Source: a virus
DNA: 34,742 bases
Strand: one strand, 5' to 3'
IMG/VR virus record: IMGVR_UViG_3300036846_000678
Location: 1 to 34,742 of that record
Positions within the stretch are counted from its first letter, which is position 1. The number at the start of each line of letters is the position of its first letter. This document shows, piece by piece, positions 10,362-31,207 of the stretch. The notes beneath the pieces were generated by a model. The model made no database searches. It saw only the letters and a list, made by a program, of their open reading frames with translations, and had not been told where the DNA came from. The position numbers and the translations under genes were made by a program.

Positions 10362-11141
10362 ATGGAAAAATCTGCCGGTATTGTTTTAGAGTTTAAAGAC
10401 CTTGACACAACTAAAAGAACGGCTGTTATTAAACACGCTGTTTATACTTCCATTGACCGGGTGAAAGATATTTCCACCAAAGGCATGTTTACCAAAAGCT
10501 GGAATGAGAATAAGCCTGATTTTTTATTAAATCATATTGAAGGCAAAGCCGTTGGTATGGTTAAGAAAACCTTTGAAGATGATAACGGCGCTTATACAGA
10601 GGTGAAATTTGGAAACTGGACATTAGGCAATGATGTGTTGGAGATGGCTGATGAAGGCGCTTTAAAGGGTGCTTCATTTGGTTATGTAACAGAGAAAAAA
10701 GATTTTATAAATATAAAAGGGCAGAAAGTAAGAAAGTTGCTTGAGGTAAGGCACATTGAAACGTCTTTATTAACGGTGCCGCCTGCACATCCTGAAGCCG
10801 GAATAATTACACTTAATAAATCGTTAGAGCTTATTGATGAAAATGACATAACAGAACTACTTGCCTGGAATGATGAACAGGTGAAGGCAATGAAAACCTA
10901 TGTACAGAAGATAGAAACCTATTGCCACAAAGCAAAAGCAAGTGATGAAAGCATTATAACACTTCAAAATTCTTTACAGGAATATAAAAAGATAATTTCT
11001 GAATTTGATACCGCAGTCACTCAACTGATCCCTGAGCCGGTTGCCAGCGATGAAGAAGTTAAGACCATAACAAATTTTCTTAACTTATTAAATGTTGAGT
11101 CGTGGAAACTAAAACACTTGAAACCCAGCTTACCGAGTTAA
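10362..11141 (+). CDS. Prohead protease (HK97/U35-type serine protease)
   Basis: A 259-residue protein that matures the procapsid by cleaving scaffold/capsid delta domains. The N-terminal about 160 residues are the Peptidase_S78/U35 domain: DRVKDISTKGMFTKSW, the catalytic His in DFLLNHIEG (H58), the catalytic Ser in LKGASFGYV (S105), and the following VRHIETSLLTVPPAHPEA. The C-terminal 90 residues are helical and may act as an internal scaffold. ATG 10362. The gene overlaps the capsid gene by 40 bases. It is the first gene after the terminator pair, so this operon begins here. Confidence 0.9.
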   Translation: MEKSAGIVLEFKDLDTTKRTAVIKHAVYTSIDRVKDISTKGMFTKSWNENKPDFLLNHIEGKAVGMVKKTFEDDNGAYTEVKFGNWTLGNDVLEMADEGALKGASFGYVTEKKDFINIKGQKVRKLLEVRHIETSLLTVPPAHPEAGIITLNKSLELIDENDITELLAWNDEQVKAMKTYVQKIETYCHKAKASDESIITLQNSLQEYKKIISEFDTAVTQLIPEPVASDEEVKTITNFLNLLNVESWKLKHLKPSLPS

Positions 11142-12361
11142 AGGCGGGGCTGGAAACTTTCACCAAAGAAGAAATAAAAACCTCTCTTGCAAAAATAGAG
11201 GGTGAAATAAAGGCCGTTGCTGATAAGGCTGATAAAACGGAGCTTGAAAAACTAAACACTTCACTTACCGAAATTAAAACCGCATTCGATAAAAATCAGG
11301 TTTGGATTGATGAACAAATTGCCGATGGCAAACGTGGGCGGGTAAAAGGCAATGAAAAGAAATCATTTAACCAGATACTTGCCGAAACCATTGAACGCAA
11401 TGCCGATTCAATTCGCAATTTCAGGCGTAACAACCCGGAATTGAGATTTGATCTTTTACCGGAAGCACCAAAGAATAATGAAGGCAAAGCGGCAGAAGTA
11501 AAAGCCGTGGGTGATATGAGTATGGCCGTAAACTTTCCAGGCGGTTTAGGTTTATACCAGGATGTGCGCGGGCCCGTTATAATGATCCCATATGAACGTC
11601 AGTGGATAGCTGATCTTTTGCCGCAGGGCACAAGCCAGGGGACGCAGGTTATTTACCCGAAAGAAAACGGCATCGACGGCGGCGCAGCTGCCTGGACTGA
11701 TCAGACACAAAACAAGCCGCAGGTAGATTTCAACTTTACAAGCGCGGTTTCTCCTTTTGTGTGGATAGCTGGTTGGGCTGTAGTGCAAAGGGATATGATA
11801 GACGACATCACATGGATGACTTCTTATCTGCAAAACCGTTTACTCGTTTCCTTAAAAACGGCAGAAAATGATTTTGTATTAAACGGCGTGGGTGCTATTC
11901 CGGGATTTCAGGATGTGGCCGTAACGTATAACGGCGGCTATAAAGCTGCAGTAGATAAGATTATGGATGCAGGTTACGGTCAGATACCGGCGGGGACGTC
12001 AGAATTTTATTATCCTACCAATGCTATTATCAACACCCGTGATGTGGTAACGATAGGCTTGAATAAGGCAACGGGCAGCGGTGAATATGATTTGCCTGAT
12101 GGCTCTGTAGCCTTTACAAATGGCGGTTTAACCATTGGTGATCTTAAGGTTTCCGGAACTACATCTTGCGCTTATGGTACATTCTATGTGCTGGATAACC
12201 GGGCAACGATGTTTATTCGCAGGCTGCAGCCGGAACTAAGGATGTTCGAAGATGCAACACTGGCGAAGAAAAACCAGATCATGTTCAGGATTGAAGAAAG
12301 GTCAGCTTTGATAATATTTAATAATTCAGCTATTGTAAAGGGTGTGCTGACGAATAGTTAA
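11102..12361 (+). CDS. Major capsid protein (HK97 fold)
   Basis: A 419-residue protein. Residues 1-75 are a coiled-coil delta/scaffold domain (LETQLTELKAGLETFTKEE...), expected to be removed by the protease. The mature shell part starts after about 130 and shows the Phage_capsid pattern: GLGLYQDVRGPVIMI, RQWIADLLPQGTSQG, AWTDQTQNKPQVDFNF, then KTAENDFVLNG and a terminal RIEERSALIIFN. Start is GTG 11102 inside the protease gene, the only in-frame start that keeps the coiled coil. Two hairpins follow immediately, consistent with a highly expressed gene. Confidence 0.92.
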   Translation: METKTLETQLTELKAGLETFTKEEIKTSLAKIEGEIKAVADKADKTELEKLNTSLTEIKTAFDKNQVWIDEQIADGKRGRVKGNEKKSFNQILAETIERNADSIRNFRRNNPELRFDLLPEAPKNNEGKAAEVKAVGDMSMAVNFPGGLGLYQDVRGPVIMIPYERQWIADLLPQGTSQGTQVIYPKENGIDGGAAAWTDQTQNKPQVDFNFTSAVSPFVWIAGWAVVQRDMIDDITWMTSYLQNRLLVSLKTAENDFVLNGVGAIPGFQDVAVTYNGGYKAAVDKIMDAGYGQIPAGTSEFYYPTNAIINTRDVVTIGLNKATGSGEYDLPDGSVAFTNGGLTIGDLKVSGTTSCAYGTFYVLDNRATMFIRRLQPELRMFEDATLAKKNQIMFRIEERSALIIFNNSAIVKGVLTNS

Positions 12362-12367
12362 GAGCTG

Positions 12368-12444
12368 AAGCCCCACCCTAAAGGGAGTTATTTAAGGCTT
12401 TTTTGTTTTTGCCAAGTAAGGCCTCTTCACCATCGGGAGGCCTT
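12368..12444 (+). terminator. Two hairpins after the capsid gene
   Basis: AAGCC (12368-12372) pairs with GGCTT (12396-12400), followed by TTTTTTGTTTTT: an intrinsic terminator. Inside it CCCTAAAGGG forms a smaller hairpin. The second, AAGGCCTC (12418-12425) with GAGGCCTT (12437-12444), is a perfect 8-bp stem ending 8 bases before the next ATG. Probably partial termination that lowers expression of downstream genes relative to the capsid. Confidence 0.72.
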
Positions 12445-12452
12445 CTTTAAAT

Positions 12453-12680
12453 ATGAAGATAACTTTTATAAAACCGCATTTGGAATGGAACCCCGGCGAT
12501 GAGGCGGAGCTTGATGACGGTATTGGGCTTTATCTTATTCATGCGAGTGTGGCAACGCTTGAAACAGTGGATGAGGCGACAATTGAAAAGGTGCTGATTA
12601 AGAAGCTGAAGGCGGGGCGGCCAAAGAAAGCGGATGTGAAAGAAAAAGAAGTTGTAAAAAGAAAACAGTTTAAAGTTTAA
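12453..12680 (+). CDS. Small post-capsid phage protein (DUF7302-like)
   Basis: A 75-residue protein: MKITFIKPHLEWNPGDEAELDDGIGLYLIHASVA, then a basic tail (KAGRPKKADVKEKEVVKRK). Short proteins of this design (strand, G-D turn, then an acidic helix with LI..GVA) commonly follow major capsid genes; I connect them with the DUF7302 group from memory. Likely a minor virion or head-tail joining component. The basic C-terminal tail could contact DNA or the acidic shell surface. ATG 12453 directly after the hairpin. Confidence 0.65.
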   Translation: MKITFIKPHLEWNPGDEAELDDGIGLYLIHASVATLETVDEATIEKVLIKKLKAGRPKKADVKEKEVVKRKQFKV

Positions 12681-12704: not shown

Positions 12705-12776
12705 ATGATAATATTTTATTCACAAGTTTCCAGTAAAAATATTCATGCATTTTATAAATTATTAATTGACAATTGA
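12705..12776 (+). CDS. Possible 23-residue leader peptide of the glycosyltransferase gene
   Basis: MIIFYSQVSSKNIHAFYKLL and three more residues; its TGA (12774-12776) overlaps the TTG start of the next gene as TTGA. The overlap would allow translational coupling and helps explain use of a TTG start. It is too short for homology or codon statistics, so it may be chance. The near-palindrome TTATTAATTG-A-CAATTGATAA (12759-12779) covers the same junction. Confidence 0.3.
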   Translation: MIIFYSQVSSKNIHAFYKLLIDN

Positions 12777-14296
12777 TAACGTTTAATTCTTTAGGATCTA
12801 TTGGCAGGCTGGGAAACCAGCTCTTTCAGATTGCTTCTGTAATTGGTATTGCTGAAGCACTGGGAACGGAAGCGGCATTTCCTGCATGGCAATATGAACG
12901 CTATTTTAAAAATCCATTACCCAAAACTCAAAACCCAAAACCCGAAACGCAAAACATTAAGATAAAAGAAAGGTTTTTTCATTATGATGAAAGTCTTATA
13001 AACGAATTAAAGGCTCCGATATGCTACGATTTAAACGGCTTCTTTCAGGCGGAAAAATATTGGCGGGCAAGTAAAGAGGCCGTTTTAAAACAGTTTGAAT
13101 TTGAGGCCAATTTTAAAAAGTATGTAAGCGAAAAATATAAAACGGCATTATCAAAAAATCATGTTGCCATATCTATAAGGCGCGGCGACTTTGTGAATAA
13201 CTCAAACTATTTTCAAATACCGGTTACCTGGTATTTAAATGCTTACTATAAATTTTTTGGTGACGATTATAATGTAATAATATTCAGCGATGACTTTGCA
13301 TGGTGCAAGACACATTTTAAGCCATTGCCGAAAGTTTATTTTGCTGATGACCTGAATGATATTGAGCAATTGTGTTTAATGAGCATGTGCGAGAATCATA
13401 TTATTTCAAACTCCACCTTTAGCTGGTGGGGCGCTTACCTAAGTCGCAGCAATTGTGTGATAAGGCCGGAAAAGAATTTTGCGGGCAGGCTGGCAAAGGA
13501 GAACAGCGAAAAAGATTATTGGCCTTACGGCTGGATAATGTGCAATGAATATAAAATTAACTTGTACGATACCACATTTATCATCCCGGTATATTATGAC
13601 CACCCGGACAGGATGCAAAACCTGATGCTTACCGTTGCATTCTTAAACACCTATTTCAACACGAACATATTGATCGGCGAGCAGGGCGGGCAGGCTTTTG
13701 AACAGTTGGCTGATTATGTTGATTATATACAGTTTAATTATGACAGTTTCCACCGGACAAAAATTATTAATGAGCTTATAAAAGTCGCTGATTCCCGCAT
13801 AGTTGTAAACTGGGATTGTGATAATATTTGCGCTCCCGTTCAAATTGCAGAAGCGGTAAATAAGATAAGGGATGGCGCTGATATATGTTACCCTTTCGAT
13901 GGCACCGTACAGCGTACACCCCGATTCTGCCTGCAATATGTTGCTGAAACTTTGGATGTGCATTATATAGCTGAAAAGTACTGCTATGAAAAACAATCTT
14001 CTGTAGGTCATGCCGTGGTGATGAATAAGAAAAGCTTTATGCGGGCAGGCATGGAAAACGAAAACTTTATTAGCTGGGGCCCGGAAGATAGTGAACGGTT
14101 TAACCGCTATAATATTTTAGGGCTCCATGTGGAACGTGTACAGGGGCCTATTTATCATATAGACCATTTTGTAGGTGAGAACAGCAGCGGTAAGAATCCG
14201 CATTTTAAGAATAATGAACGGGAGTTTCTGAAGGTGGTGACAAGGAATAAGGAGCAGATGGAGGAGATGATAAAGGGATGGCCGTGGTGTAATTAG
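12773..14296 (+). CDS. Two-domain glycosyltransferase: GT11 fucosyltransferase-like plus GT-A domain
   Basis: A 507-residue fusion. Residues 1-260 resemble GT11 alpha-1,2-fucosyltransferases: GRLGNQLFQIA (11-21), AISIRRGDF (132-140, the GDP-fucose binding motif; the usual HxRRxD His is replaced by Ser) and NSTFSWWGAYLS (213-224). Residues 265-507 start a second enzyme, TTFIIPVYYDHPDRMQNLM, with a DxD-like WDCD (347-350) and SWGPEDSERF (434-443), as in the C-terminal part of galactosyltransferase-like GT-A enzymes. So one protein could add two successive sugars. Residues 46-65 are encoded by a low-complexity AAACCC repeat. TTG 12773 is the only start compatible with the frame and gives the usual N-terminus. 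Its place between capsid and connector genes suggests virion glycosylation; modification of the host surface is the alternative. Confidence 0.8.
   Translation: MITFNSLGSIGRLGNQLFQIASVIGIAEALGTEAAFPAWQYERYFKNPLPKTQNPKPETQNIKIKERFFHYDESLINELKAPICYDLNGFFQAEKYWRASKEAVLKQFEFEANFKKYVSEKYKTALSKNHVAISIRRGDFVNNSNYFQIPVTWYLNAYYKFFGDDYNVIIFSDDFAWCKTHFKPLPKVYFADDLNDIEQLCLMSMCENHIISNSTFSWWGAYLSRSNCVIRPEKNFAGRLAKENSEKDYWPYGWIMCNEYKINLYDTTFIIPVYYDHPDRMQNLMLTVAFLNTYFNTNILIGEQGGQAFEQLADYVDYIQFNYDSFHRTKIINELIKVADSRIVVNWDCDNICAPVQIAEAVNKIRDGADICYPFDGTVQRTPRFCLQYVAETLDVHYIAEKYCYEKQSSVGHAVVMNKKSFMRAGMENENFISWGPEDSERFNRYNILGLHVERVQGPIYHIDHFVGENSSGKNPHFKNNEREFLKVVTRNKEQMEEMIKGWPWCN
12917..12960. repeat. AAACCC-type repeat inside the glycosyltransferase gene
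   Basis: Units CCCAAAAC, TCAAAAC, CCAAAACCCGAAAC and GCAAAAC encode a Pro/Lys/Gln/Asn linker (residues 49-61) absent from a normal GT11 fold. It is the same repeat as at 15145-15210. It keeps the frame, so the protein probably tolerates it as a surface loop; copy-number change would shift the frame. Confidence 0.7.
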
Positions 14297-14321
14297 CGGC
14301 GCAATTATGCACCAGTTAATG

Positions 14322-14358
14322 AATTGTTAACCTGAAGAAAACGATACACTTAACAATT
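14322..14358 (+). promoter_or_regulatory. Inverted repeat between glycosyltransferase and methyltransferase
   Basis: AATTGTTAA (14322-14330) and TTAACAATT (14350-14358) form a perfect 9-bp inverted repeat with a 19-base spacer. No U-tract follows, so it is more likely an operator or leader structure than a terminator. It lies in the 154-base gap before the methyltransferase start at 14451. Confidence 0.4.
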
Positions 14359-14365
14359 TGAAATT

Positions 14366-14440
14366 ATGAAAGTTATAAAGAAACGAGACACGGAAAGCAC
14401 AGGATATCCTCTTATTATAGGTGCTGTCATTCTGCTGTAA
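14366..14440 (+). CDS. Possible 24-residue leader peptide of the methyltransferase
   Basis: ATG 14366 encodes MKVIKKRDTESTGYPLIIGA plus VILL and stops 10 bases before the methyltransferase ATG. It has a basic start and a hydrophobic end. It mirrors the short frame before the glycosyltransferase. Evidence is positional only. Confidence 0.25.
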   Translation: MKVIKKRDTESTGYPLIIGAVILL

Positions 14441-14450
14441 ATGTGCTGAT

Positions 14451-15089
14451 ATGCATGAGCTGGATATACTTGGTTTAAAGCATGGTACGGATAAGAGCAG
14501 TGAATATCATAATTACTGCGACATCTATGAAAGTTATTTGAAAGATTTAAGGCATTTAAAGCTTGCAATTATTGAGCTGGGTGTTGGAGGTTATGAATAT
14601 ATTGACAGGGGCGGCGAAAGCTTACGGATGTGGTTTGATTATCTGCCAAATGCAAAGATCATAGGCATTGATCTTTATGAGAAGAAAGATATTATAAATG
14701 ATAGAACGGAATTCTGGCAGGGATCGCAGACAGATAAACACCTTTTAAAAGTTATTTTAAGCCGCTGTGCTGATGCGGATAAAAGAATAGTGATAGATGA
14801 TGCCAGCCATAATAACAGGCTGACCATTGAGAGCTTTAATATCATTTTTCCGCTGTTGAAAGGTGGTGACCTGTATTTTGTTGAGGATGTGCAAACAAGT
14901 TATTTTGATGATAAGCTTTATGAAGGCAGCGAGAAGCCGGGCGATAAGGACACAACGATGGAATTTTTTACGCGGCTCACACATCAATTGAACGGCGAAC
15001 ATTTAAAAATGGAGCATCAAAATCAATATTCGTGGATGGTAGAATGGATACATTTTTATAAAGAATTGATTGTAATAAAAAGATTATAA
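14451..15089 (+). CDS. SAM-dependent methyltransferase, sugar O-methyltransferase-like
   Basis: 212 residues from ATG 14451 (MHELDILGLKHGTDKSS); a GTG at 14421 is possible but adds a Cys-rich stretch lying over another short frame. Class I fold motifs: AIIELGVGGYEY (motif I), GGESLRMW, IIGIDLYEK (acidic motif II), and RIVIDDASHNN. The KHGTDKSS/ELGVGG/GGxSLRMW set is that of macrocin-O-methyltransferase/MycE-like enzymes, which methylate sugar hydroxyls. Directly after a double glycosyltransferase it would cap the attached glycan. A plus-strand terminator follows. Confidence 0.82.
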   Translation: MHELDILGLKHGTDKSSEYHNYCDIYESYLKDLRHLKLAIIELGVGGYEYIDRGGESLRMWFDYLPNAKIIGIDLYEKKDIINDRTEFWQGSQTDKHLLKVILSRCADADKRIVIDDASHNNRLTIESFNIIFPLLKGGDLYFVEDVQTSYFDDKLYEGSEKPGDKDTTMEFFTRLTHQLNGEHLKMEHQNQYSWMVEWIHFYKELIVIKRL

Positions 15090-15117: not shown

Positions 15118-15142
15118 GGGCGGTGAAAGCCCCGCCCTTTTT
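15118..15142 (+). terminator. Intrinsic terminator after the methyltransferase
   Basis: GGGCGG (15118-15123) pairs with CCGCCC (15132-15137) around an 8-base loop, followed by TTTTT. It closes the glycosylation cassette and separates it from the connector genes. Confidence 0.75.
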
Positions 15143-15144
15143 GA

Positions 15145-15210
15145 AAGTTTGGAGTTTAAAGTTTGAAGTTTAGAGTTAAACCCGAAACACTAAACCCAAA
15201 ACCCAAAACA
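15145..15210. repeat. Low-complexity GTTTGG/AAACCC repeat
   Basis: The left half repeats variants of GTTTGGAGTTTAAA, the right half variants of AAACCCGAAACACTAAACCC, so the tract is partly self-complementary. The same AAACCC(A/G)AAAC units occur in frame inside the glycosyltransferase gene (12917-12960). Such tracts are a familiar feature of Bacteroidota genomes and may mark host-derived or recombining DNA around the cassette. Confidence 0.7.
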
Positions 15211-15216
15211 TAAAAT

Positions 15217-16065
15217 ATGTTTGACTATAGAAAAAACAGCGATTATTATCAGAATGCTTATATACAGGCAACGCCGCGTAATGCGGTAATTGATGTTTTA
15301 TTCTCTGATCAGATGCCGGTATCAACGCCGGGCGGCGGCGAGAGCGTATTGACATTGAGCGCTGCAGGCGGTGAATATTCTTTAATAGATAACAGGCTTT
15401 TAGGTGCTGATATAGTACTGCTTTTTAGAGACGGTCTGAACTATTATGAAACACAAAGCAGTTTCACGGGAAACGATAAAGAGTTTCAATTTGACGCTGT
15501 GACCGGAACGATAATATTTCCACCGGCACCTTTTCCGTCACTGCAGCCAAATGAAAAGGTTACTATGACATTTATCGCGGGCGGAAGTGAGGTACTGGTA
15601 ACGGAACCTGTAATGCTGACCCAAGCAAAGGCATGGCTTAAAGTAACATTTACTGATGAAGATGATTTGATAACGGCGCTGATAACAGCAGCAAGGCAGG
15701 TATGCGAAAGCTATACGGCAAAAAGTTTTGTAGAGAGAACGGTGACGGCAGTATTGAGAAATGATTTAGGAAATGTTAAGCTGCCTTACGGCCCGGTGGG
15801 TAATGTAACTGGCGCGGCTGATGTGGACGGCAACAGCATAACAGATTTTGTGGTGACGGGTGTTTTTGATAAGCGCTTATGCAGCCCAATAAGCAGTTAT
15901 GTACAGATCAGTTACACGGCGGGATATTCTGTTTTACCGCAGCAATTTCAAACGGCTTTGCAGATGCAGTTAAGTTGGATGTATTTACATCGCGGTGATG
16001 AGGAACTAACGAATATTGCACCGGACGCAAAAGCAATTCTTTCACCCTTTAGAGCGGTTGTATGA
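15217..16065 (+). CDS. Head-tail connector, gp6-like, with an extra N-terminal domain
   Basis: 282 residues. The C-terminal part from about 130 (TEPVMLTQAKAWLKVTFTDEDDLITALITAARQVCESYTAKSF) is the Phage_gp6-like connector domain that binds below the portal; it ends with QTALQMQLSWMYLHRGDE. The first 120 residues are a beta-rich domain (LTLSAAGGEYSLIDNRLLGADIVLLFRDGLNYYET...FDAVTGTIIF) not found in the minimal connectors, possibly decorating the neck. ATG 15217. It is the first gene of the connector/tail run and overlaps the next gene (ATGA at 16062). Confidence 0.85.
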   Translation: MFDYRKNSDYYQNAYIQATPRNAVIDVLFSDQMPVSTPGGGESVLTLSAAGGEYSLIDNRLLGADIVLLFRDGLNYYETQSSFTGNDKEFQFDAVTGTIIFPPAPFPSLQPNEKVTMTFIAGGSEVLVTEPVMLTQAKAWLKVTFTDEDDLITALITAARQVCESYTAKSFVERTVTAVLRNDLGNVKLPYGPVGNVTGAADVDGNSITDFVVTGVFDKRLCSPISSYVQISYTAGYSVLPQQFQTALQMQLSWMYLHRGDEELTNIAPDAKAILSPFRAVV

Positions 16066-20234: not shown

Positions 20235-20243
20235 ATATTGAAT

Positions 20244-20819
20244 ATGGAAGAATGGAGAGATATAAAAAACTATGAAGGATTGTATCAAGTCAGCAATTTA
20301 GGCAACGTAAAAAGCGTAGCAAGAATAATAAAATCATTATCTAATCCTAATTGGAGATATTTAAAGAAAGAACGAATTTTAAAACCAACGAATGATAGAG
20401 GATATTTGAGAGTAATACTTCAAAATAATTCTAAAAACTACCCCTTTGTTGGTATTCATCGTTTGGTAGCAAAAGCATTTTTATCCAATTCACTTAATAA
20501 ACCATGCGTAAATCACATTGATGGCAATCCATCTAATAATAATGTTTCAAATCTTGAATGGTGTACATATGGCGAAAATCTATTGCACGCATATAACATA
20601 CTTGCCAGAAAAGGGCCAACTCATCGCTGTGGGTTGTTTGGCGAACTGCATCCAAATGCTAAAAGAATTTTATGCATAAATAATGGAACAGTTTATTATG
20701 GATTTCATGAAGCTGGAAGAGAACTTAATTTATGTTACAAAAATATTCACGCAGTTTGTAAAGGTAAACAAACACATCATAAAGGTTATTATTTTAAATA
20801 TTTGGAATGTACGGCTTAA
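20244..20819 (+). CDS. HNH homing endonuclease (NUMOD4-HNH)
   Basis: 191 residues from ATG 20244. The N-terminus EEWRDIKNYEGLYQVSNLGNVKS is a NUMOD4 domain. The HNH core is VGIHRLVAKAFL, then PCVNHIDGNPSNNNVSNLEWCTYGEN, with the metal-binding His/Asn pattern intact. A C-terminal NUMOD1-like DNA-binding part follows (RILCINNGTVYYGFHEAGRE). The gene is more A+T-rich than its neighbours and splits the tape measure from the tail-tip gene, as free-standing homing endonucleases do. A TTG at 20238 is in frame but less likely. Confidence 0.93.
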   Translation: MEEWRDIKNYEGLYQVSNLGNVKSVARIIKSLSNPNWRYLKKERILKPTNDRGYLRVILQNNSKNYPFVGIHRLVAKAFLSNSLNKPCVNHIDGNPSNNNVSNLEWCTYGENLLHAYNILARKGPTHRCGLFGELHPNAKRILCINNGTVYYGFHEAGRELNLCYKNIHAVCKGKQTHHKGYYFKYLECTA

Positions 20820-29484: not shown

Positions 29485-31068
29485 TTAAGCACTCATGCTT
29501 CTGATAAATTCCAATAGATGAATAAGGGGTTCGATAGAAGTTACATCGGGTCTACCTGATGGAACCTTTTTCATTTTTAATGCCTTTTCATCTATTAGTA
29601 AAAGTTGTTTCTCTCTTAAAATCAAATGGTTATGAGAAAGAAAAGAAATGATATAAGGTGTTCGATAAATGCCTTGCTGGTAGTACAATTGGCTATCGAA
29701 CACCAGCTTTATGAGCTGTTGTTTATTAATGGTGGATGTTTTTTCATATCTATAATTTAAATCGGATAGCTTTTCAATTTGTGTTTCTAATAAAGAATAA
29801 ATTCCGTTTTCGTCTTTCTGTAAAAACTCCATTTCCTGTTTTATCTGGCTACGCTGATCATTGAATTTTGTGTGCCAGCGCTGGTAAGTATCAAAAGCAA
29901 TTTCATTTCTTATATACTTTTCTTCCATGCTTTCGACCTGTTTAATAACATCTTTTAAAGCAGATTGTTTAAGATTTAAAAGTTTATTATTTTCTTTTAA
30001 TTGCTGCTTAAATTTATTTGCGCTTTGTTCGTGAACAGAATTTATCATGCGTTCCGGCAGGCTTAGATATTTCCATACCTCAGATAACTGCGCATGCGCC
30101 TTTATCGCTGAAATATTATTATGGCTGCTCGTTTGACATTTATAGTAATTGTAAGGCTTTTTTAATTTATTAAAAGAAGGTGACCCGGTCAGTGGTCTAT
30201 TGCACCAACATTTTAAAACGCCACGTAAAGGAAGTTCATCGTCAATTGTTTTTACCGGATTTCTTTTTCTTAAAAGAATTTGCGCGGCTTCAAAGGTTGT
30301 GGTATTGATTAAAGGTTCGTGAACGCCTTGCACCCATTCTTCCGGGAAGTCTTTAAAAGCTTTTACGTGAAGCAGGCCGATATATACTTTATTGGTGAGT
30401 ATGCGCGCAATGGCGGCCTTTGCTTTTAAGTTAAAGCCCATTTTAACAGCGGTGCGTTTAATTTCTTCCTGAGGCATTCCTTTAATAAAGGAATTAAAAA
30501 TATAATGAATTATATGAACTTTATTTTCATCGGGCGCAATGCCAGGCTTTCCGTTTTCAAGTTTTACATTTTTATAGCCTAACGGAGCCTTAGCGAGAAA
30601 GCGGCCTTCTCTTTTCTTAGCGGCATAGATGCCGCCGTTTATGTCATTAATGCGTTTTATGTTTTCCGTGTTACCCATTAAAAATTCCAGCGATAACATA
30701 AAATAAGAAGCGTGATCATTCACATCATAAATGGCATTGCGTCCGGCGCTTACAATTTTTATTTTATAATTATCCTGAATGTACTTTACCATCGTCACAG
30801 CTTCGCCCAATTCGCGGGAGAAGCGGGTGAGGTCAGAAACAATTAAATAATCAATTCCGCGATTTGACTTAATAAATTTAAAAAGCTCTTCCACATCCGG
30901 GCGGTCAAAATTTCGGGCGCTTTGTCCTAAATCTTTAAACGGTATGCAAACATCATCGACGTTGTTATTCGTGCGCCAGTTTTCCGTAATTATCTCCTGC
31001 CGTTCAATCGAACTGTTACTTTGCCCGTCCGAGCTGAAGCGCAAGTATGTTATGCTTTTTTTTCTCAT
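29485..31068 (-). CDS. int: Large serine recombinase (integrase)
   Basis: 527 residues from ATG 31068. The catalytic domain has YLRFSSDGQSNSSIERQ with the nucleophile Ser 12, then ARNFDRPDVEELF, DYLIVSDLTRFSRE (the conserved Arg residues) and ends near 140. The Recombinase domain follows (APLGYKN about 161, PDENKVHIIHYIFNSFIKGM, ILTNKVYIGLLH). A zinc-ribbon-like part has CWC (287-289) and YYKC (311). A coiled coil (about 345-450) and a C-terminal tail complete the large serine recombinase layout. It would catalyse integration/excision, or conceivably inversion. The frame extends upstream to 31095, but MRKKSITYLRF is the normal start. It sits inside the early replication operon, not next to the repressor. 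Confidence 0.9.
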   Translation of the reverse strand: MRKKSITYLRFSSDGQSNSSIERQEIITENWRTNNNVDDVCIPFKDLGQSARNFDRPDVEELFKFIKSNRGIDYLIVSDLTRFSRELGEAVTMVKYIQDNYKIKIVSAGRNAIYDVNDHASYFMLSLEFLMGNTENIKRINDINGGIYAAKKREGRFLAKAPLGYKNVKLENGKPGIAPDENKVHIIHYIFNSFIKGMPQEEIKRTAVKMGFNLKAKAAIARILTNKVYIGLLHVKAFKDFPEEWVQGVHEPLINTTTFEAAQILLRKRNPVKTIDDELPLRGVLKCWCNRPLTGSPSFNKLKKPYNYYKCQTSSHNNISAIKAHAQLSEVWKYLSLPERMINSVHEQSANKFKQQLKENNKLLNLKQSALKDVIKQVESMEEKYIRNEIAFDTYQRWHTKFNDQRSQIKQEMEFLQKDENGIYSLLETQIEKLSDLNYRYEKTSTINKQQLIKLVFDSQLYYQQGIYRTPYIISFLSHNHLILREKQLLLIDEKALKMKKVPSGRPDVTSIEPLIHLLEFIRSMSA

Positions 31069-31207
31069 AATATTCTTTAAATACATCTTCCACAATCATG
31101 GTAGAAAGTAAATCTATAAATTGTTTTTCCTCTTCGGTGGTTTCGTTTTTCACAACAGTTAATAAAGTGCTTTTATCAACTGGTTTTAATTTTACTGCCT
31201 GGTGCAT
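31016..31207 (-). CDS. Small protein overlapping the recombinase start
   Basis: 63 residues, MHQAVKLKPVDKSTLLTVVK then TEEEKQFIDLLSTMIVEDVFKEYYEKKK. Similar short ORFs with the IVEDVFKEYYEK-type end commonly precede serine recombinase genes in this phylum (from memory). It overlaps the recombinase by 53 bases, so the two may be translationally coupled. It could be a recombination partner; unproven. Confidence 0.6.
   Translation of the reverse strand: MHQAVKLKPVDKSTLLTVVKNETTEEEKQFIDLLSTMIVEDVFKEYYEKKKHNILALQLGRAK

Follow-up and report, generated by a model that had tools for sequence, protein, structure and literature searches.

Linked genes for a fused glycosyltransferase and a MycE-like methyltransferase among the head genes of a tailed phage: a possible cassette for O-methylated virion glycans

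What two sugar-active enzymes might be doing among the head genes of a phage is the question raised by an IMG/VR record of ~34.7 kb, analysed here along its whole length (hereafter the window). It contains an ordinary head module, with genes for a terminase, a portal, a MuF-like protein, a prohead protease, an HK97-type capsid protein, a connector and tail proteins. The two genes in question, ORF 12773-14296 and ORF 14421-15089, sit between the major capsid gene and a gp6-like connector gene, a placement proposed in a first-pass annotation and confirmed by Pfam and PHROG matches on both flanks (table 1). We favour, with a probability of roughly 60%, the reading that the pair is a co-inherited late-operon cassette that would furnish a protein of the virion with a short O-methylated glycan.

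Table 1. Features of the window in and around the two-gene cassette.
Feature	Position	Strand	Evidence and remarks
Major capsid protein, HK97-type	11102..12361	+	Pfam PF05065 1.4e-17, PHROG 10 3e-23
Stable hairpin, weak T tract	12414..12446	+	3' of capsid gene, before 75-aa ORF; z -2.6; not called by terminator scan
75-aa ORF, possibly small head protein	12453..12680	+	Between capsid and cassette; very weak PHROG 829 match, E 0.057
GT11 (alpha-1,2-fucosyltransferase-like) domain, residues 1-256	12773..13540	+	Pfam PF01531 1e-26, PHROG 2644 7e-57
GT-A domain, beta4GalT/chondroitin-polymerase type, residues 262-507	13556..14296	+	Pfam PF02709 8e-7, PHROG 15655 1e-46
MycE/TylE-like metal-dependent sugar O-methyltransferase, catalytic domain only	14451..15089	+	PDB 3SSM 3e-24, 8IA9 2e-21
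Possible terminator: hairpin 15118-15137 plus TTTTT	15118..15142	+	3' of methyltransferase gene; stable, z -2.1
gp6-like head-tail connector	15217..16065	+	Pfam PF05135 6e-7, PHROG 442 6e-21

The first gene encodes a protein of 507 aa, its TTG start lining up with an ATG in a related contig (L003, see below), in which a GT11 domain is joined to a GT-A domain according to Pfam, PHROG, AlphaFold and Foldseek. The Glyco_transf_11 (PF01531) match covers residues 9-251 with 94.4 bits, against a curated cutoff of 23.9, and the R-R-x-D donor motif is present, the motifs of this half reading IRRGDFVNN and NSTFSWW. Among about 40 aligned GT11 rows, R136 occurs in all and R137, D139, S214 and W218 in nearly all. 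Transfer of L-fucose from GDP-fucose is probably the activity of this half. The second half has the GT-A fold, the DxD motif and the E-D catalytic loop of beta4GalT/GT7-like enzymes. It matches Glyco_transf_7C (PF02709) at residues 402-465 (29 bits, cutoff 23) and PHROG 15655 over residues 262-498, and the 507-aa protein is also matched by PHROG 1721, ‘galactosyl transferase’ (4e-13). Its catalytic residues are the DxD (D348-C-D350), R280, WGPED (E438 D439), H462 and H465; D350, R280, H462 and H465 are kept in all 43 aligned GT-A rows. A profile built from 74 relatives retrieves chondroitin polymerase and beta-1,4-galactosyltransferases from the PDB (2z87 1.4e-7, 1tvy 1e-4). The AlphaFold model of the whole protein, computed from a 74-sequence alignment (three sequences gave a pLDDT of 47.5), has a mean pLDDT of 94.7 and a pTM of 0.92. 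The Foldseek matches for the GT-A half of this model are K4CP chondroitin polymerase, beta4GalT1 and GalNAc-T2 (2z86 1.7e-10, 1nmm 2e-9), and the best match to the fusion among viral models is an alpha-1,2-fucosyltransferase. Profiles, model and catalytic motifs thus bear out the earlier proposal of GT11-like and GT-A-like domains in one protein, both halves falling into glycosyltransferase families.

The longest methyltransferase ORF, of 222 aa, runs from GTG 14421 to 15089, and its true start is probably ATG 14451, because this is where L002 and L003 begin in the alignment. The active-site residues of MycE, Tyr208, Asp275, His278 and Asp304 (PMC9275233), are all four kept as Y58, D127, H130 and D156 of the ORF (the 3SSM chain numbering being taken, from the motif register, as the MycE numbering plus 20), and D127, H130, E155 and D156 are unchanged across 10 aligned relatives. 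The alignment to 3SSM thus shows a MycE/TylE-type active site, and the MycE-like methyltransferase first proposed to follow the fusion is real. The macrolide enzymes, of ~400 aa, have an additional N-terminal domain that is absent here, the matches covering only positions 183-331 of 3SSM and 158-341 of 8IA9; the phage enzyme may therefore share the chemistry of the macrolide enzymes but without their substrate site. Since the characterised MycE-class enzymes act on 6-deoxyhexoses, for example 6-deoxyallose and rhamnose (PMC9275233), the deoxyhexose, and not a hexose, may be the sugar that carries the methyl group. Of the glycan with a methyl-hexose envisaged initially, the methyl cap is still the best reading, whereas the placement of the methyl on the hexose was a guess. 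The macrolide substrates of MycE and TylE, together with the promiscuity of a relative of these enzymes towards its acceptors (PMC9275233), might also suggest that the enzymes act on a small molecule, or on some other protein of host or phage that has nothing to do with either the particle or the cell surface. However, biosynthetic genes were not found nearby and the genes to which the pair is linked are head genes, and we regard this alternative as very improbable.

Several smaller elements occur around the two genes. An ORF of 24 residues with a hydrophobic end (14367-14441) lies between them, and in L090 and L091 hydrophobic ORFs of ~70 aa occur slightly upstream of the methyltransferase gene. 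An A/C-rich 39-nt repeat (ACCCAAAACTCAAAACCCAAAACC...) is present in two copies, 82% alike, one in the GT11 coding region (12919-12957), where it falls within a short protein insertion that L002 and L003 do not have, and the other just before the connector start (15180-15218). An HNH endonuclease gene (20238-20819; PHROG 59, 2e-47) is inserted among the tail genes. The pair had been described as bounded by terminators at 12368-12444 and 15118-15142. The downstream one is plausible and the upstream one weaker, its T tract being poor and the 75-aa ORF falling within the bound; the hairpin at 12362-12400 is no more stable than shuffled sequences. Terminator-like sites in the region number five, against 5.3 by chance, and in L003 the gap between methyltransferase and connector genes is too small for a terminator, so bounding terminators can be rejected as a general feature of the cassette.

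Searches of viral contigs revealed the same fusion with a neighbouring MycE-like gene in five other virus contigs (L002, L003, L010, L090 and L091), bringing the fusions found so far to six in all, and in each of the six the glycosyltransferase and sugar-modifying genes are linked to virion genes. The cassette occurs in three unrelated head-gene settings and in both gene orders, its neighbours being portal, capsid or connector genes. In the first setting, the fused gene and the methyltransferase gene follow the capsid gene and precede the connector gene. This is the order in the window and in L003 (portal, MuF, protease, capsid, fusion, methyltransferase, connector), and in part in L002 and L004. 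L002 has the fusion, a 108-aa ORF, the methyltransferase, a small HNH-like gene (2403-2864) and the connector, with 65 and 72% identity to the pair of the window; L004 has the end of the methyltransferase gene and then the connector gene, at the contig edge. In the second setting (L090 and L091) the order is methyltransferase, fusion, portal, and in the third (L010) a Clp-type protease and a capsid-like gene are followed by methyltransferase, fusion, GT25 and portal genes. The fusion and methyltransferase genes of L003 overlap by 19 bp, with the methyltransferase stop 1 bp ahead of the connector start, and in L010 both the methyltransferase/fusion and the GT25/portal overlaps are of 4 bp. These overlaps suggest co-translation, and the embedding of the cassette genes in the head operon of the relatives argues for late expression.

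The association of the two enzymes is also apparent from how the loci were found. In a search with the glycosyltransferase only, all three distinct fused loci had an adjoining methyltransferase gene, against about two of ~77 unfused loci with such a gene within ~3 kb. L090 and L091 came from a methyltransferase search, so that the methyltransferase was there a condition of discovery, but the fused glycosyltransferase and the adjoining portal gene were not. Viral-contig searches with the capsid protein alone gave no matches, and those with the L090 fusion returned L090 only; a scan of genome contigs yielded single-domain homologues, mostly of the GT-A half, and no prophage carrying the cassette. 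Further putative glycan genes accompany it in two contigs, namely a Stealth-CR2-like phosphotransferase gene (L091, 4391-5080) and the GT25-like gene of L010 (7631-8101). In L094 (2142-3556), and likewise in L092 and L093, a 254-aa protein that fits no known family, possibly an unrecognised glycosyltransferase, and then a MycE-like methyltransferase come immediately behind a terminase that is related to the one in the window.

In the domain trees, each half of the fusion forms one clade, with support of 100/97 and 100/98, that is distinct from the unfused cyanophage genes. The simplest reading is a single fusion event, the product of which would since have spread to at least three head-gene settings and two gene orders. 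In the methyltransferase tree the six cassette enzymes do not form one clade, L010 lying outside on a weak branch; co-inheritance is thus firm for the two glycosyltransferase halves and not proven for the L010 methyltransferase. Between the window and its relatives, pN of the cassette genes is 0.17-0.29 and pS 0.70-0.79, the pN of the capsid gene being higher (0.34). Where dN/dS could be estimated it is about 0.07-0.13, values that are rough because synonymous sites are near saturation. The low pN relative to pS and these ratios indicate that the cassette genes are maintained by purifying selection. Relatives without the cassette, in which the capsid gene adjoins the connector gene, are Cellulophaga phage phi12:1 and the Chitinophagaceae locus L153, the latter being the one case with capsid beside connector among the distant prophages that were all a connector search of 299 Chitinophagaceae genomes retrieved. 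As relatives of its capsid and connector occur in Cellulophaga phages and Chitinophagaceae, the phage of the window probably has a Bacteroidota host. A tentative broader view, which we hold somewhat short of an even chance, is that the GT11-beta4GalT fusion and the MycE-like methyltransferase travel as a mobile unit between tailed phages that are unrelated and probably infect Bacteroidota, giving their capsids or necks a coat of a methylated disaccharide that contains fucose.

The glycan, however, might be destined for the cell rather than the particle: in infected cells or lysogens the cassette could alter the surface glycans (LPS or capsule) of the host, and with them the receptors, and so exclude other phages, its position in the head region being an accident of moron insertion. 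Surface-polysaccharide synthesis typically uses GT11 and beta4GalT-like enzymes, the GT-A half is closer in its tree to bacterial than to cyanophage enzymes, and the hairpins flanking the unit could allow its separate expression. A serine integrase gene (29485-31095, on the opposite strand to the cassette) suggests that the phage is probably temperate, which would make modification of the lysogen surface possible, yet this gene is ~14 kb distant. The modelled fusion is globular along its whole length, and among the window proteins scanned there is no gtr-type serotype conversion cassette (gtrA flippase, gtrB bactoprenol glycosyltransferase and membrane gtr near the attachment site) or other membrane glycosylation gene. 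Together with the repeated embedding in head operons, down to the portal overlap and the 1-bp connector gap of the relatives, the lack of membrane gtr-like genes among these proteins weakens the host-surface explanation, which we consider unlikely. The model put forward at first, a methyl-capped glycan on either virion or host surface, stands as to its enzyme classes, supported by profiles and motifs and strengthened by the five further contigs, with the virion as the likelier of the two surfaces.

Under the favoured virion reading, the fused protein, expressed late, would add two sugars in succession, its GT11 half probably a deoxyhexose from GDP-fucose and its GT-A half a hexose or N-acetylhexosamine from a UDP-sugar. 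The MycE-like enzyme would then O-methylate the product using SAM and a divalent metal. The acceptor would most likely be a head or tail protein of the phage from the same operon, the HK97-type capsid protein being a candidate, and the sugar donors would be supplied by the host; no sugar-donor genes and no acceptor motif were found in the phage. The usual acceptors of GT11 and beta4GalT-like enzymes are sugars, and the cassette may thus depend on an initiating enzyme or on a glycan that the host already provides. The benefit might lie in shielding, stability or adhesion of the particle. As phage glycosyltransferases that hypermodify DNA do exist (Pyle et al. 2024, as cited in PMC12619734), and a Mycobacterium prophage glycosyltransferase with a weak match to TET-associated glycosyltransferases adjoins a MycE-like methyltransferase, it might instead be thought that the enzymes add sugars and methyl groups to modified bases in the phage DNA. 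This is made extremely unlikely by the absence of hydroxymethylase, TET/JBP and other base-modification genes among the window proteins scanned, and neither glycosyltransferase half matches a DNA-glucosyltransferase family, while the methyltransferase is of the sugar O-methyltransferase type.

Virion glycosylation has been demonstrated in few phages, mostly mycobacteriophages. A compact two-gene cassette beside the head genes in several phage lineages would suggest that sugar-coated particles are more widespread, and the mobile-unit view, if true, would add an independent sugar coat of virions to those known from mycobacteriophages. With a whole disaccharide-plus-methyl pathway in two genes, the cassette would also offer a simple system for asking what role such a coat plays.

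The initial statement that no phage system of this composition had been described was too strong, since precedents exist in cluster O mycobacteriophages (PMC11600133) and in the chlorovirus protein A064R (PMC9614988), and a virion glycan with a methyl cap is thus not in itself a new idea. According to the account of Freeman et al. 2023 in PMC11600133, cluster O phages have an O-methyltransferase gene beside three glycosyltransferase genes, and their capsid and tail tube are reportedly modified; virion glycosylation is ascribed to the same study, for the cluster O Corndog type and cluster F Che8, in PMC11600133, PMC12363180 and PMC11256854, and glycosylated virions of Che8, Corndog and Myrna are mentioned in PMC12363180. 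The likeness, drawn from described gene content, is that of phage-encoded glycosyltransferases with an adjacent O-methyltransferase; cluster O, however, has three separate glycosyltransferase genes and actinobacterial hosts, whereas the window has one GT11-GT-A fusion, and the phage records with a match to the fusion include no mycobacteriophage. A064R of chlorovirus PBCV-1 is a GT-GT-MT protein, the activities of which were shown experimentally, and it makes the terminal, methyl-capped part of the glycan on the capsid (PMC9614988). It resembles the cassette in composition, in combining two glycosyltransferase activities and a methyltransferase in one unit and in making a methyl-capped disaccharide, but it holds all three domains in one protein, its rhamnosyltransferases belong to other GT families, and its virus infects a eukaryotic alga.

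Closer in some parts are cyanophages (S-T4, S-SM2, S-SSM7 and others), in which homologues of both halves occur side by side with about 28-36% identity; there, however, the genes are separate, unfused and part of large sugar clusters in which a MycE-like gene is rare, and they belong to another clade in both trees. In Mycobacterium abscessus prophages, for example prophiFSAT01-1 (gp45-gp46; L005, 4586-6684), a glycosyltransferase gene overlaps that of a MycE-like methyltransferase (39% identity), the terminase and portal genes lying a few genes further downstream, but the glycosyltransferase is of the GT2/PHROG 1579 type and, by our searches, unrelated to either half of the fusion. Cellulophaga phage phi12:1, which of the isolated phages found has the nearest capsid (32% identity), has a methyltransferase gene overlapping a glycosyltransferase gene within its head genes (gp39-gp40; L007, 2356-4028), yet that pair is of the Methyltransf_24 and TOD1/MUCI70-like types and is flanked by the MuF-like and prohead protease genes; its gp39, annotated as ‘DNA methylase’, is a small Methyltransf_24 protein, and the pair is perhaps another glycan cassette. 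Set against these systems, and within the reach of our searches, what is new is the enzyme combination, the fusion and its spread next to head genes.
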